Part shown: positions 1 to 5,433 of the stretch, piece by piece
Layout: each line of letters begins with the position of its first letter
Numbering within the stretch: the stretch's first letter is position 1
Assembly: GCA_018667995.1 (NCBI GenBank)
Contig: JABIQT010000297.1
Span: forward strand, 1 to 5,433
DNA: 5,433 nt
Direction of reading: 5' to 3'
Origin: Candidatus Latescibacterota bacterium
GTDB lineage: Bacteria; JAAXHH01; JABIQT01
Translations under genes and position numbers: made by a program
Notes under the pieces: model-generated
Database searches by the model: none
What the model was told of the DNA's origin: nothing
What the model saw: the letters and a program-made list of their open reading frames with translations, nothing else

Positions 1-1
1 C

Positions 2-1153
2 CGGGAGATGCTCCAACCGGGTGGCGGATTCTATGCGACGCAGGATGCTGATAGTGAGGGCGAGGAAGGGAAGTTCTTTGCCTGGACGCCAGGTCAGATC
101 GTCGAAATCTTAGGCGCTGATGACGGCGGTCTGTTTTGTCGCTATTACGGTGTCGAGGAGATCGGGAATTTCGAGCACGGAACGAGCGTCCTGCATGTGC
201 CCGTTGAAGCCGACACCTTGGCGGCACACCTCAAGATTGACGGTGCGCACCTCGGGGCTGTCCTGACTAAGGGGAGAGGACAGCTGTTCGACGTTAGGGA
301 GCAACGCGTCAAACCGGACAGGGACGAGAAAATCCTCACGGATTGGAACGGGTTGATGATTGGTAGTCTGGCTCGTGCTTACTCGCTGCTTGGAAACCGT
401 GTGTATCTTTCCGCCGCCGAAGGAACCATGCGTTTTGTGCTCGATACCATGTATCATGAAGGACGGCTGCTGCATGTGTACAAGGATGGTGAGGCGAGGC
501 TTAACGGCTACCTGGACGACTATGCTTTTTTGGTGTCGGCGCTATTAGATCTCTATGAGGCATCATTCGATACAGAATGGTTTCAAATGGCAATGGCTCT
601 GAATGGAACAATGATCGACCAGTTCTGGGATCGTGATGGGGGAGGATTTTTCTTCACGAGTTCAGACCATGAGCAGTTGATAGTCAGATCAAAGAACCCG
701 TATGACAATGCCATTCCGTCAGGGAACTCTGTCGCGGTAAATAACCTGCTCCGGCTGGCTGCCTTCACAGGACGGTCTGATTACAAGGAGATGGCCGAGA
801 AGACGCTGATTCTCTTTCACGATCTGATGAAATCTGCTCCGGGTGGATTCGGGCAACTTTTGTCTGATGTAGCATGGTATGTGGAGGGCGGCATAGAGAT
901 CGCCATCATTGGATCTGAGGCCGATCCTGCCACTATCGCTTTGCTTGAGATTGTCCGACGCAGAGATCTGCGCCATACTGTCATAGCTCTCCATGACCCC
1001 GTAAAGGGACCTGCGCCGGTCGATCTGATTCCGCTTCTAGCAGATAGGCAAGCCGTGAATGGTAAACCTACTGCCTATGTCTGCCGGGATATGGTGTGTC
1101 GGCAGCCGGTGTCGACCGCCGATGAGCTCGGCATGATACTGGATGGACCCTAA
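2..1153 (+). CDS. YyaL/SSP411-family protein, C-terminal part (5' end outside window)
   Basis: This is the C-terminal part of a YyaL/SSP411 (DUF255) family protein. The family joins an N-terminal thioredoxin-like domain to an (alpha/alpha)6 barrel like that of N-acylglucosamine 2-epimerases, and its biochemical role is poorly defined. The frame is open to the left edge, with codons Arg-Glu before the first ATG at 8, so that ATG is internal. About 383 residues are present, against roughly 650-700 in full-length members, and the thioredoxin part is missing. Numbering from the ATG at 8, family signatures are GGFYATQDADSEGEEGKF near residue 6, KILTDWNGLMI at 108-118, YLDDYAFLVSALLDLYEASF at 168-187, PSGNSVAVNNLLRL at 237-250, and a C-terminal TAYVCRDMVC at 355-364. 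No signal peptide can be judged. The stop lies 17 bases before purU on the same strand, so the two are probably co-transcribed. The family call is firm; the function is not. Confidence 0.93.
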   Translation, partial: REMLQPGGGFYATQDADSEGEEGKFFAWTPGQIVEILGADDGGLFCRYYGVEEIGNFEHGTSVLHVPVEADTLAAHLKIDGAHLGAVLTKGRGQLFDVREQRVKPDRDEKILTDWNGLMIGSLARAYSLLGNRVYLSAAEGTMRFVLDTMYHEGRLLHVYKDGEARLNGYLDDYAFLVSALLDLYEASFDTEWFQMAMALNGTMIDQFWDRDGGGFFFTSSDHEQLIVRSKNPYDNAIPSGNSVAVNNLLRLAAFTGRSDYKEMAEKTLILFHDLMKSAPGGFGQLLSDVAWYVEGGIEIAIIGSEADPATIALLEIVRRRDLRHTVIALHDPVKGPAPVDLIPLLADRQAVNGKPTAYVCRDMVCRQPVSTADELGMILDGP

Positions 1154-1156
1154 CTT

Positions 1157-1161
1157 AAGGA
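1157..1161 (+). promoter_or_regulatory. Shine-Dalgarno sequence that supports the TTG start of purU
   Basis: AAGGA lies 9 bases before the TTG at 1171. An in-frame TAA at 1156-1158 rules out any start further upstream, and the next in-frame ATG (codon 57) would remove most of the ACT domain. TTG at 1171 is therefore the only sensible start, and this site explains how it is recognised. Confidence 0.7.
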
Positions 1162-1170
1162 CGTGATTTT

Positions 1171-2034
1171 TTGGCCGACAAGAACTTTACCGCAATTCTA
1201 CTACTGTCCTGCCCTGACAGGATAGGTCTCGTCTCCCGCATCTCGCACTTTGTTTTTGAGCGCGGGGGGAATATCCTGGACCTAGATGAGCACGTGGACC
1301 GACAGGCCAATGTCTTCTCAGTTAGGGTTGCCTGGGACATGGCAGACTTCTCGATTTCCGCCTCTGAACTCAACGAAGCGTTTACGCCTCTCGGGAAGGA
1401 ATTTCATGCGACATGGAAGATCAAGTTTACGCTTGAGCCAACGAAGATCGCCATTTTCGTTTCAAAGTACGATCATTGTTTACAGGAAATCCTCTGGCGT
1501 CGAAGACTCGGTGAATTCCAGGTCGACATCCCTCTGATTATCTCCAATCATCCGGATCTGGCCCCGCTGGCCGAATACTACGACGTGCCGTTTCACGTCG
1601 TGCCCATTACAAAAGAATCCAAAGATGCACAGGAACAAGTGCAGCTGGAACTTCTGCGGTCTCACGATGTAGACACCGTCGTGCTGGCGAGATATATGCA
1701 GATTCTGTCTCCGGAATTTGTAAGCCGGTACTCTGGACGCATTATCAATATCCACCATTCCTTTCTCCCAGCTTTCATAGGTGGCAATCCTTACAAACAG
1801 GCCTATGAACGGGGTGTAAAAATCATTGGGGCCACCAGTCATTTTGTTACGGATGAACTGGATGAGGGTCCGATAATAGAGCAGGATATTGTACGAATAT
1901 CGCACAGAGACAGTGTAAAGGATTTGATACGAAAGGGCCGCGATTTGGAACGGCTGGTTCTCGCGCGTGCACTTCATCACCATGTAGAACATCGGATTCT
2001 CGTCAACAAGAATAAGACAGTTATTTTCGACTAA
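1171..2034 (+). CDS. purU: formyltetrahydrofolate deformylase
   Basis: PurU hydrolyses 10-formyltetrahydrofolate to formate and tetrahydrofolate in the cytoplasm. It balances the one-carbon pool and supplies formate, for example for PurT-type purine synthesis. The 287 residues match the usual length of about 280-290. Residues 6-85 form the ACT domain, with the PurU-typical GGNILDLDEHVDRQ at 32-45; in characterised PurU proteins this domain mediates control by methionine and glycine. Residues 90-285 form the formyltransferase-fold domain, with IPLIISNHPDL at 120-130, VLARYMQILSPEF at 171-183, NIHHSFLPAFIGG at 193-205 and HFVTDELDEGPIIEQD at 224-239. Asn193, His195 and Asp231 align with the Asn-His-Asp catalytic set of PurN and PurU. 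The start is TTG, forced by an upstream in-frame stop. The gene sits 17 bases after the YyaL-like gene and 9 bases before the peptidase-acetyltransferase gene. The ACT domain argues against a purely biosynthetic formyltransferase. Confidence 0.96.
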   Translation: MADKNFTAILLLSCPDRIGLVSRISHFVFERGGNILDLDEHVDRQANVFSVRVAWDMADFSISASELNEAFTPLGKEFHATWKIKFTLEPTKIAIFVSKYDHCLQEILWRRRLGEFQVDIPLIISNHPDLAPLAEYYDVPFHVVPITKESKDAQEQVQLELLRSHDVDTVVLARYMQILSPEFVSRYSGRIINIHHSFLPAFIGGNPYKQAYERGVKIIGATSHFVTDELDEGPIIEQDIVRISHRDSVKDLIRKGRDLERLVLARALHHHVEHRILVNKNKTVIFD

Positions 2035-2036
2035 GG
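2033..2036 (+). promoter_or_regulatory. Shine-Dalgarno sequence overlapping the purU stop codon
   Basis: AAGG overlaps the last two bases of the purU TAA (2032-2034) and lies 7 bases before the ATG at 2044. This arrangement is typical of translational coupling, in which a ribosome finishing purU exposes or reuses the site for the next gene. It also supports ATG 2044 as the true start of the downstream gene. Confidence 0.6.
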
Positions 2037-2043
2037 CATTGCC

Positions 2044-4725
2044 ATGATCCCCCTATCTGTGAAGACCTTCTGCAAGAATACATTGCCTCAGGTTCATGCG
2101 GCTGTAATCGGTACCAGGATGATTGACGATGTCCGGGACATCGTAGAAACCGATAGATGGAATTCATTTGACCGATTTCACGATACGACCAAGAACCTAG
2201 TTAATAAATACCACGCAGCCGGCGTCAAAGCCGAAGTGTATAGTGCCCAGACCGGAGGCTCCACCGACTCCGGCCGATGGGTCATTCAGGAGGCTTCGGA
2301 CGTGAACGGCGCGACTGTAGATATTGTCGCGCCTGTAAAAGAGCCGTTGTTGAACTTCGCGGATAATCCGTGGCATGTCATCCAATGGAGTGCCGGCACC
2401 GCCACGCAGGGGCTTACATGCGATATCGTTGTCGTGGATACGAATGAGGAGCTGGATGCGATTTCTAGTGCAGCGCTCACCGGGAAAATCATACTTACGG
2501 CGATGAGCCCACGTGGACTGCTTCGCAAGGTCGATCGCACGGGTGCCGCAGGAATCATAACGGATCAGGGACAGGCTCATTTGCCGGATGCTACACCGTG
2601 GGTCAAATTTGGTTGGGGGCAGATACCCCGCTCGGAAAACGCCACACGCCTGCTAGGGCTGGCGATATCACGCAACAGAGGTAAGCGTCTCCGAAGCCTG
2701 ATAGCCACCCACGGCACGCTCGCAGTGCATGTAACGGTCGATATCCGCAAATACGTGGGTAGCCATGATGTGGTGAGCGGCATCGTGGAGGGGAAGGACG
2801 ATCCACAGGACGAAATCTGGGTGCTCGCTCACAGTGCGGAACCAGGAGCGGTGGACAATGCTTCCGGAGTTTCCGTGTGTCTGGAGATGGCCCGAGTGCT
2901 TCAGGATTTGATTGCGGAAGGCAAGATTCCGCGCCCTCGGCGATCCATCAGGTTCCTCAATGCTTACGAGTGCTATGGCTTCTTCCACTATATGGAACAT
3001 GTCAAGCGGCTTCAAACACCTCTGGCCGGAGTCTGCCTCGATACCCTAGGTATTCGACCGGAGCTCTGCGACGGAAACCTATCGTGGCGGTCGACCATCC
3101 CTATGTCTGCCGGATTTGTCGACCGCATCGGTGAACAAATGCTGCGCGCAACTCTTGAATTGGGGAATCCCGGGTATACGCTGCACTCGGGGGCGTTTAT
3201 TGCCACGTCGGATACGTTGGCTGGTGATCCTCAACACGGTTTCCCCTGTCCCTGGCTCACCACTCACTATCTCGATGAAGGTGTTTACCACGCGTACCAT
3301 AGCTCCGCTGACACGGTAGATCTACTTAGTGCCGACGGGTTAGCCGTATGTGCCTCTGCCATTGCTGGCTATCTCTTGTATCTCGCCAATATGGGAAGCG
3401 AGGAGATTGTTCAGATTGCGGCAACGGAAACGGAAAAAACCGCTTCGGTACTTAGTGGTGGTTTGAAAGTTCCTGGTTCTGGGCTGGCACCTTCGACACG
3501 TCACGTTCAAGGTCTGGATCAAGAGCCAGTTTCTGGGGATCAAACTCTTCTGGCCGGTGACGCCTCCTATCTTCGTGAGGCACACGCCACGTCGATGAAG
3601 CGTTTGAAGCGCTGGATGTGGGGCGGAGATCGAAGGGCAGTGTTGACCTATCTTGACGAGAGCTCAAAGCGAATAGAGGCCGCGCTGGCACCATACGGGG
3701 TTGTGGAACCTACCACAGAGGCGGGCGCCGATAGCATACCATATAGAACAGCATTCCTTTCTCCGTCTTTGGCTAATGTACCCGAGCCCGTTGCCAAGAC
3801 CATTGCGGCGGCAGATCTTGCAGACTGGGCCTTATTCTGGGCGAACGGACAAAGATCCATAGGTGAGATATCCGAGCTGCTCTCTTGTGAGTATCAGGAA
3901 CACGTGGAGGTTGGACGGGTCATCAGGTACTTCGGTGGGCTCGAAGCTCTCGGGTACGTACGTATTCTCTCGCACGATGAATGGATATCAAAAGACATGC
4001 TGATCCGCGACCTTAATCGTCTCGGTCTCGTCCCGGGCATGGATGTCATGGTACACAGTTCGTTGGCAAGAATTGGATACGTAGAGGGCGGTCCGGATAC
4101 GGTGGTGGACGCTCTGTTGGAGGCAGTGGGCCCGGAGGGTACCGTGCTGGCCCCATCATTCAACCATCGAACAGCCGAGGTGTACAATCCCATGACGACG
4201 CCAACGATAAGCGGCAGCATTCCCGATGCGCTCTGGCGAAGGACCGAAGCAGAACGCAGCATGCAGGCAACACATGCCGTCGCAGCAGTAGGTCAACGAG
4301 CTGCCATGTACTGCTGTCAGGATCATTATGTGCAGGGCATCTGGTCGCCGGAGAGTCCTATTGGTCGGTTGGTCCATGGCGAAGGCTATCTGCTATCGCT
4401 GGGTGTGGCTCATGACAGAACCACGGCCTATCACGTGGCAGAGACATCCATGAGATGTGGTTGTATAGATCCCTTTGGCAACACCGATCGCGTAGTTATA
4501 CAAGGCGAAGTGCAGCAAGTACGAGGATTGGCATTCCGATCAGAAGAATGTCCGGTAGACCCGATGATGCTGCACGAACCATTGAGATCTCGCGGCCTTG
4601 AAGCGTTCGGCAAGGTAGGGAATGCAGATAGTACGCTGGTAAAGGGGAAGGATCTTTGGGACATGCGCCGCGAGCAGCTCGGTGATAGTTGCCGCACGTG
4701 TAGTATCAAACCTCTATTGCGGTAA
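2044..4725 (+). CDS. fusion protein: M28/DUF4910-like peptidase with PA domain, winged-helix-like module, AAC(3)-family acetyltransferase domain
   Basis: This 893-residue protein appears to hold three modules. Residues about 25-450 resemble M28 (clan MH) zinc aminopeptidases. A PA domain is inserted at about 125-180. Likely metal or catalytic residues are His263, Asp271 in VDNASG, Glu309, Asp333 in CLDTLG, and His419 in YHSSADT. His263 sits in AHSAEP rather than a clear HxD. Residues about 590-645 (ALFWANGQRSIGEISELL, then GGLEALGYVRIL) look like the small winged-helix module found after such peptidases. Residues about 650-893 match the AAC(3)/YokD family: VHSSLARIGYVEGG at 670-683, GPEGTVLAPSF at 696-706, SPESPIGRL at 768-776, and TAYHVAE at 794-800 with the His797/Glu800 pair. 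No ribosome-binding site precedes the third module and the frame is unbroken, so this is a genuine fusion. No signal peptide or membrane segment is seen, so it is probably cytoplasmic. Substrates are unknown. Domain calls are good; the combined role is inference. Confidence 0.85.
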   Translation: MIPLSVKTFCKNTLPQVHAAVIGTRMIDDVRDIVETDRWNSFDRFHDTTKNLVNKYHAAGVKAEVYSAQTGGSTDSGRWVIQEASDVNGATVDIVAPVKEPLLNFADNPWHVIQWSAGTATQGLTCDIVVVDTNEELDAISSAALTGKIILTAMSPRGLLRKVDRTGAAGIITDQGQAHLPDATPWVKFGWGQIPRSENATRLLGLAISRNRGKRLRSLIATHGTLAVHVTVDIRKYVGSHDVVSGIVEGKDDPQDEIWVLAHSAEPGAVDNASGVSVCLEMARVLQDLIAEGKIPRPRRSIRFLNAYECYGFFHYMEHVKRLQTPLAGVCLDTLGIRPELCDGNLSWRSTIPMSAGFVDRIGEQMLRATLELGNPGYTLHSGAFIATSDTLAGDPQHGFPCPWLTTHYLDEGVYHAYHSSADTVDLLSADGLAVCASAIAGYLLYLANMGSEEIVQIAATETEKTASVLSGGLKVPGSGLAPSTRHVQGLDQEPVSGDQTLLAGDASYLREAHATSMKRLKRWMWGGDRRAVLTYLDESSKRIEAALAPYGVVEPTTEAGADSIPYRTAFLSPSLANVPEPVAKTIAAADLADWALFWANGQRSIGEISELLSCEYQEHVEVGRVIRYFGGLEALGYVRILSHDEWISKDMLIRDLNRLGLVPGMDVMVHSSLARIGYVEGGPDTVVDALLEAVGPEGTVLAPSFNHRTAEVYNPMTTPTISGSIPDALWRRTEAERSMQATHAVAAVGQRAAMYCCQDHYVQGIWSPESPIGRLVHGEGYLLSLGVAHDRTTAYHVAETSMRCGCIDPFGNTDRVVIQGEVQQVRGLAFRSEECPVDPMMLHEPLRSRGLEAFGKVGNADSTLVKGKDLWDMRREQLGDSCRTCSIKPLLR

Positions 4726-4753
4726 AAGTGTCCGCTACTCGACACTTGCGGTA
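4717..4753. repeat. 8-base direct repeat flanking the hairpin
   Basis: TTGCGGTA occurs at 4717-4724, where it covers most of the last codons and stop of the fusion gene, and again at 4746-4753, 29 bases further on. The two copies bracket the 7-bp hairpin. Only one pair is present and it is short, so chance is quite possible. No larger repeat array was seen. Confidence 0.3.
4726..4747 (+). terminator. possible weak terminator hairpin after the fusion gene
   Basis: AAGTGTC (4726-4732) and GACACTT (4741-4747) are perfect inverted repeats around an 8-base loop, starting on the base after the stop codon. Position and orientation suit the end of the + strand operon. The stem is only 7 bp with moderate GC, and no T-run follows, so it does not meet the criteria for a classical intrinsic terminator. 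It may only protect the 3' end, or be chance. Confidence 0.3.
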
Positions 4754-4844
4754 GACGGGGCCGGACTGGAGTAAATCGAAGTCATTTCTATTGGCCTGAA
4801 TGTGATTGTGGAACGGAATTGCCGCGAGATTAGTATCTCACGCC

Positions 4845-4860
4845 ACGGTGAGCTCGCCGT
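4845..4860. other. imperfect palindrome in the intergenic gap
   Basis: ACGGTGAGCTCGCCGT is a near-perfect 16-base palindrome centred on GAGCTC, with one mismatched pair (T/G) that would still form a wobble pair in a + strand RNA. It lies between the convergent genes, 43 bases beyond the ketosynthase stop. A shorter palindrome, GAGAT-TAGT-ATCTC, is at 4826-4839. Neither is followed by a T-run on either strand. These could be protein-binding sites or transcript-end structures, but nothing else supports a specific role. The rest of the 177-base gap holds no recognisable gene. Confidence 0.3.
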
Positions 4861-4902
4861 AAACTGGCAGGTTACCTGGAATCGGATGGAAGCTCAGGTT
4901 GT

Positions 4903-5433
4903 CTATTCAATGGGGCGGGATAGAACGCAGGCATTTACGCCTCCTATTCCCATGGACATTTTTCCGGCTACCCCATTGGACGGTTCACAATGGTCATCGA
5001 ATACGAACCGGCTGTGGATCTTACCGATTTCCTCATTGAGTTCGGATCTTTTGAGAGGTATTGGCAGCATCTTGCCGTGCTCGTAACCCAGGTATTGTGC
5101 CGTAAGTTCCCAGCCTCCACCGGCGCTCATGCCATGACCAAATATGCCCTTACGGGCAGTCACCAGGACTGACTCGGGCACCACATCCAACAGGTTTTCC
5201 ATTTCGAGATAATCGCCTGGGGTAGCTGTGGCATGGAGATCCCAGGTATCAATTACATCTGGAGTGATACCGGCGTCACTGATTGCTTGGTGAATGGCAG
5301 AGAGAGGACCCTCCTTCGAAGGTGTGATGATGTGATCCGCGTCCGAACTCACACCTACAGTTAACGGCTCCATACCCATCGCCCGGTAGCCTCGTGACGT
5401 CATATACTCGTAGTCACCGACGATCCAGAGTAC
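4903..5433 (-). CDS. beta-ketoacyl-ACP synthase (FabF/KAS II-like), C-terminal part (5' end outside window)
   Basis: This is the C-terminal part of a thiolase-fold ketosynthase, which condenses malonyl-ACP with an acyl chain in fatty acid or polyketide synthesis. The frame is open to the right edge, so the ATG complementary to 5401-5403 is internal; 176 residues are visible of a usual 400-420. Numbering from the edge, His67 in DLHATATPGD matches the first active-site histidine (HGTSTP in FabF). Lys95 and His100 in KGIFGHGMSAGGG match the conserved lysine and second catalytic histidine. GIGGVNA at 162-168 matches the C-terminal GFGGTN loop, with Ile in place of the usual gatekeeper Phe. The active-site cysteine would lie outside the window. 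The gene ends at TAG 4903-4905 and faces the + strand operon across a 177-base gap. The sequence departs from housekeeping FabF at several motifs, so a specialised synthase is possible. Pathway and chain length cannot be told from this piece. Confidence 0.88.
   Translation of the reverse strand, partial: VLWIVGDYEYMTSRGYRAMGMEPLTVGVSSDADHIITPSKEGPLSAIHQAISDAGITPDVIDTWDLHATATPGDYLEMENLLDVVPESVLVTARKGIFGHGMSAGGGWELTAQYLGYEHGKMLPIPLKRSELNEEIGKIHSRFVFDDHCEPSNGVAGKMSMGIGGVNACVLSRPIE

Follow-up and report, generated by a model that had tools for sequence, protein, structure and literature searches.

A single-chain protein joining a divergent M28-like domain to an AAC(3)-type acetyltransferase in Latescibacterota and neighbouring phyla, a candidate N-acyl-exchange enzyme

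Gene, domain borders and predicted structure

The window, i.e. the whole stretch of 5,433 nucleotides analysed here (Candidatus Latescibacterota bacterium, assembly GCA_018667995.1, contig JABIQT010000297.1, positions 1 to 5,433 of the forward strand), contains one long gene with an ATG start and no internal stop, and the open-frame list confirmed the unbroken frame of 893 codons described in the earlier note (stop codon at 4723-4725). The deduced protein consists of an M28-like metalloprotein (residues 1-645) with a PA-like insert, a helical region and a winged-helix-like module, followed in the same chain by an AAC(3)-type acetyltransferase (Table 1). The fusion gene and the purU gene ahead of it may share one transcript, and purU is not kept as a neighbour in the relatives examined. 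A signal peptide was not evident in the protein sequence, which fits a CoA-using cytoplasmic enzyme.

Table 1. Genes of the window and parts of the fusion protein (residue numbers are those of the 893-residue chain)
Feature	Coordinates	Strand	Basis or remark
DUF255-type protein, C-terminal part	2-1153		upstream of purU; full-length relative in L005
purU (formyltetrahydrofolate deformylase)	1171-2034		ends 9 bases ahead of the fusion gene
Whole fusion gene	2044-4725	+	893 aa + stop; open frame, full-length relatives, AlphaFold model
M28-like part A, about residues 1-83 (border approximate)	2044-2292	+	structural alignment to Vibrio aminopeptidase
PA-like domain inside the M28 fold, about residues 84-236 (border approximate)	2293-2751	+	Foldseek best match 2ek8
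M28-like part B, about residues 237-450 (H263, E266, D271, E309, C310, D333, H419)	2752-3393	+	Pfam M28; invariance
Helical region, about residues 451-590, with disordered stretch 477-497	3394-3813	+	DSSP and pLDDT of the model
Winged-helix-like module, residues 591-645, WANGQRSIGEI motif	3814-3978	+	DUF4910 profile alignment; same motif in 3k9t
AAC(3)-type (Antibiotic_NAT) acetyltransferase, residues 646-893	3979-4722	+	Pfam; AAC(3)-IVa structure match; residue mapping
Divergent ketoacyl synthase, C-terminal end	4903-5433	-	also adjoins the L005 relative

The presence of M28 and AAC(3) parts in one chain, previously read from the letters alone, was borne out by Pfam, where both families scored above their cut-offs: Peptidase_M28 (PF04389) over residues 257-442 (E 1.1e-8, 35.5 bits against a cut-off of 21.3) and Antibiotic_NAT (PF02522) over residues 669-877 (E 8.7e-38, 130.6 bits against 25, covering positions 1-229 of the 232-position profile). 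Both cores were also recovered in the AlphaFold2 model (pLDDT 88.3, pTM 0.91; input alignment of 32 sequences), in which residues 5-452 matched the Vibrio aminopeptidase with a Z score of 26.0 over 264 residues and residues 643-893 matched AAC(3)-IVa with a Z score of 29.7 over 240 residues; the top Foldseek match of the model, 2ek8, is a PA-containing aminopeptidase.

The match to DUF4910 (PF16254) was weak and below the curated Pfam cut-off (E 4e-4, 19.7 bits against 26.6). Profile comparison with five DUF4910 proteins, in turn, aligned residues 17-642 over the whole length of this family with 99.2% probability, and included the winged-helix module with its W...G..S/R motif, which is comparable to 3k9t and aligns with the C-terminal HTH_47-type module of DUF4910 proteins. 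The PA-like insert sits where DUF4910 proteins have their DUF2172 insert (profile alignment; PMC4000134). Residues 591-645 had no match in the Pfam search, but the winged-helix-like module proposed earlier is upheld by this alignment, which reaches residue 642, and by the three helices and one strand of the model. With the M28-like core, the PA-derived insert and the C-terminal winged helix all present in the profile alignment, residues 1-645 are, on these comparisons, most aptly called a DUF4910-type protein whose PA domain is fuller and which has an additional helical region. The absence of 3k9t from the best 50 matches listed in the structure searches is no argument against this kinship.

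Distribution of the fusion and coupling of its two families

A tblastn search of the GTDB genome set returned 28 loci encoding relatives, 26 of them spanning both halves at 47-62% identity and two covering the first half alone. The record labels of relatives include Latescibacterota, Gemmatimonadota, Poribacteria, Zixiibacteriota, Handelsmanbacteria and Planctomycetota, and to judge from these alignments many uncultured bacteria have retained the joined protein. The architecture, called unusual in the earlier note, is indeed rare overall, yet it is common in one phylum: matches at E < 1e-60 occur in 35 of the 64 genomes of the phylum to which one Latescibacterota-labelled genome belongs; the window's own phylum has them in 3 of 16. 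A sample of 384 genomes yielded two far more distant full-length fusions, G344 (24% identity) and G429 (27%). By their M28 parts, all fusions fall into a single clade (support 97), which marks the fusion as old and kept, with the reservation that G344 and G429 sit on long branches. Among the NAT parts, the main clade groups with G429 (support 94), and the tree leaves the placement of G344 unresolved.

Homologues ending near residue 645, the pattern expected of a local fusion or an assembly error, proved to be the exception, the relatives being full-length. The sole intact close exception (L029:7944-9887), which lacks the acetyltransferase, is nested in the fusion clade (fork support 98) and comes from a genome carrying a full fusion as well, so it represents a secondary loss of the second domain. 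Locus L030, which with L029 makes up the two covering the first half alone, has only a short frame of 126 aa, and the Zixiibacteriota-labelled copy L005:8001-10691 (also L033, genome G011) contains one in-frame TAA, with an open frame that starts at the equivalent of residue 149. Apparent split genes in G174, G206 and G210 were set aside as contig-end cases, the N-terminal piece in G210 running off the contig end. A 1382-residue open frame in L007 was likewise rejected as a frame extension over the expected phosphorylase gene, its extra part having no family match.

Gene neighbourhoods of the fusion are conserved within clades only, with none common to different clades, and name no substrate. 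The clade-wise sets comprise DUF6784/6785, NHL, TPR and Lys-tRNA synthetase genes; GH20-like, Ldh_2 and class III aminotransferase genes; and ABC-F with glycogen phosphorylase. The genes next to the G344 and G429 fusions are housekeeping or unrelated.

The two families were also found together well beyond this protein. Of the 384 genomes sampled, 38 carry DUF4910 and 49 Antibiotic_NAT; both families are present in nine genomes that do not belong to the window's order, and in six of these nine the two are adjacent or fused. By our own estimate, chance would place them within 1 kb of each other in about 1 in 1000 genomes (one copy each, genome of about 3 Mb), so a functional link between the two holds well beyond the fusion family. 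The arrangements include same-strand pairs with a 4-base overlap or 7 bases apart (L094, L095 and L096), a convergent pair 7 bases apart (L097) and, in unrelated genomes, two reverse-order fusions with NAT first and DUF2172/DUF4910 second (L092:6876-8822 and L093:9127-11040, both on the + strand), whose DUF4910 metal motifs are degenerate and which lie a few kb from a separate, full DUF4910 gene. Antibiotic_NAT was also seen fused to other partners (L084:1642-3396, L103:1033-2580, L083:2059-3801, L097:7451-8653 and L088:634-2385), namely xylose-isomerase-like TIM barrel (twice), dienelactone-hydrolase-like, MaoC-like and class II tRNA-synthetase-like domains.

A strong NeuB match (E < 1e-50) was present in all six genomes with a separate or reverse-fused pair and in two of 13 fusion genomes, the window's own being one of them; G144 and G197, fusion genomes without such a match, correspond to records titled as single chromosomes. 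Since most fusion genomes do without a strong NeuB match, nonulosonic acid is probably not the substrate in most of them.

Conservation of the two sites

Among 39 distinct close relatives, no variation was seen at H263, S264, E266, D271, N272, E309, C310, D333, H419 and D423. Five of them (H263, D271, E309, D333 and H419) had been proposed as an M28-type ligand set, and they are present at the positions given; the site departs from the canonical one in two ways: HxD has lost its D, the M28 active-site Asp, residue 265 being A, S, G or T in the 39 sequences, and the Glu-Glu of canonical M28 proteins reads Glu-Cys (E309, Cys310). Both G344 and G429 keep H263, E266, D271 and E309 at 24-27% identity. 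Position 310, always Cys in the main clade, is V or R in these two, so that the Cys is a metal-site change specific to that clade.

The register of E309 differs with the alignment used. When canonical M28 proteins are aligned by profile, E309 falls at their general-base Glu and C310 at their metal-binding Glu, whereas the crystal analysis of CA_C2195 put its Pro225 on the general-base Glu (PMC4000134); the Glu that follows this Pro225 aligns with E309, which would place E309 at a metal-ligand position. CA_C2195 (DUF4910, 3k9t), the only solved DUF4910 structure found, was judged an unlikely peptidase (PMC4000134).

In the second half, the segments VHSSL (670-674), GTVLAPSF (699-706) and YHVAE (796-800), earlier named as the AAC(3) set, lie where they had been located. 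T794, H797 and E800 make up the TxPhiHPhiAE catalytic motif of AAC(3) enzymes (PMC8956665), with H797 and E800 invariant in 35 sequences, and the catalytic His and Glu of NAT persist in G344 and G429. The zinc-type cysteines C836, C883 and C886, aligned with C189, C247 and C250 of AAC(3)-IVa, are likewise invariant in the 35 sequences. AAC(3)-IVa is the nearest solved acetyltransferase by sequence (about 31% identity), but the residues through which it contacts aminoglycosides, D67, E185, D187 and E249 (PMC8956665), align with T710, R832, E834 and T885 of the fusion; R832, a charge reversal with respect to E185, is invariant in 35 relatives. The score against the NCBIfam equivalog for AAC(3)-IV (NF033081) was 119 bits, below the cut-off of 420. 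Replacement of the acidic contacts, one of them by an invariant Arg, makes aminoglycoside resistance unlikely and suggests that the substrate is not a polycationic aminoglycoside.

Proposed function and comparison with known systems

The nearest precedent comes from C. jejuni. Cj1295, listed as a DUF2172/M28-type protein (PMC6321876), is required to replace the C5 N-acetyl group of pseudaminic acid by a di-O-methylglyceroyl group, and its authors hypothesize that cleavage of the C5 acetamido group by this protein lets the new acyl be added (PMC3068675). Cj1296/7, which adjoins Cj1295 by gene number, is annotated as an aminoglycoside N3'-acetyltransferase (PMC3025981).

We give roughly even odds to the reading that the fusion protein is a cytoplasmic, one-chain enzyme with two sites for N-acyl exchange. 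We infer that its N-terminal DUF4910/Cj1295-like metal domain would hydrolyse the amide of a small N-acylated amine, most likely an amino sugar or a metabolite like it, and thereby free its nitrogen, and that the C-terminal AAC(3)-type domain would then place a new acyl group, taken from a CoA thioester, onto the freed amine via the H797/E800 dyad. That both sites are in use is argued from the invariance of the metal residues in 39 sequences and of H797/E800 in 35. Hydrolytic release followed by acylation, the order proposed in the earlier note, gains support from the independent coupling of the two families and from the joining in one chain of the same two kinds of protein as Cj1295 and Cj1296/7, but the M28 site is non-canonical and the sequential role is still one that we infer. 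Counted against acyl exchange are the loss of the M28 active-site Asp, the verdict on CA_C2195, the differing register of E309, the hypothetical status of cleavage by Cj1295 and the lack of neighbourhoods conserved between clades. The literature searched contained no paper describing the M28/AAC(3) fusion, and we advance only tentatively the more specific proposal of an undescribed single-chain N-acyl-exchange family of Latescibacterota and neighbouring phyla, in which a divergent M28 site (H-D-D-H with E266, E309 and, in the main clade, C310) would deacylate, and the AAC(3) part re-acylate, an amine outside both the aminoglycosides and the nonulosonic acids.

In the transferrin receptor the M28 fold is a binding and positioning domain, and some structural matches of the model are transferrin receptors. 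The M28-like part could, by analogy, be a metal-stabilised binding and positioning domain beside an acetyltransferase that alone is catalytic, for which the lost HxD Asp and the visibly degenerate DUF4910 part of the reverse-order fusions also speak. We regard this as rather unlikely, although the strongest of the alternatives, because the invariance of H263, E266, D271, E309, D333 and H419 in 39 sequences is stricter than a scaffold requires, because L029 keeps the M28 part alone, and because knock-out of cj1295 changes glycan chemistry (PMC3068675). A true aminopeptidase or dipeptidase, whose acetyltransferase would cap the released amino acid or peptide in a catabolic or detoxifying role, has in its favour that the closest M28 folds are aminopeptidases and that further peptidase genes lie near one relative (L004); it is improbable, given the altered Glu-Glu and HxD signatures, the lack of an evident signal peptide and the known association of the AAC(3) fold with small amines. 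A resistance enzyme against aminoglycosides that carries an accessory domain would agree with AAC(3)-IVa as the nearest characterised acetyltransferase and with the conserved dyad and zinc cysteines, yet it is very improbable, since the aminoglycoside contacts are replaced, R832 is invariant, and the plasmid records searched had no match over 80% of the fusion protein. An assembly error or local fusion of two genes, conceivable in a fragmented draft genome, is refuted by full-length fusions in independent genomes, single-contig chromosomes included.

To our knowledge, and in the papers found, no reaction has been demonstrated for DUF4910 proteins in the time since a structure became available, and few substrates are known for AAC(3)-type enzymes outside antibiotic resistance. 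The conserved single chain, together with independent adjacency and reverse fusion, turns the pairing into a specific, testable reaction, deacylation and then acylation of one nitrogen. The fusion also offers a two-site protein for crystallography that bears on the action of Cj1295 and Cj1296/7, and it cautions that AAC(3) matches in environmental genomes are not necessarily resistance genes.

Compared by description rather than by sequence, Cj1295 with Cj1296/Cj1297 resembles the fusion in setting a DUF2172/M28-like gene beside an AAC(3)-type gene, but these are two genes in a flagellin-glycan locus, whereas the fusion is a single chain that lies outside loci of this kind, and most of its genomes have no strong NeuB match. 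DUF4910 proteins (CA_C2195/3k9t and Cj1295) have the M28-like fold, the PA-derived insert and the C-terminal winged helix in the same order, lack the HxD Asp and are genetically linked to acyltransferases; the fusion differs from them in its fuller PA domain, extra helical region of about 140 residues, retained H263, own acetyltransferase and sub-cut-off Pfam DUF4910 score. AAC(3)-IVa (Antibiotic_NAT group 1) agrees with the fusion in fold, TxxHxAE motif and three of the zinc-type Cys positions, but the fusion has the aminoglycoside-binding acids replaced, carries the invariant Arg832, is joined to M28 and has no free-standing form in its family. Finally, the M28 aminopeptidases (BSAP/YwaD, Aneurinibacillus 2ek8 and Vibrio 1amp) have the core fold and the H-D-D-H metal residues in common with the fusion, which differs in lacking the HxD Asp, in having Glu-Cys for Glu-Glu, in being cytoplasmic and in its fused acetyltransferase.
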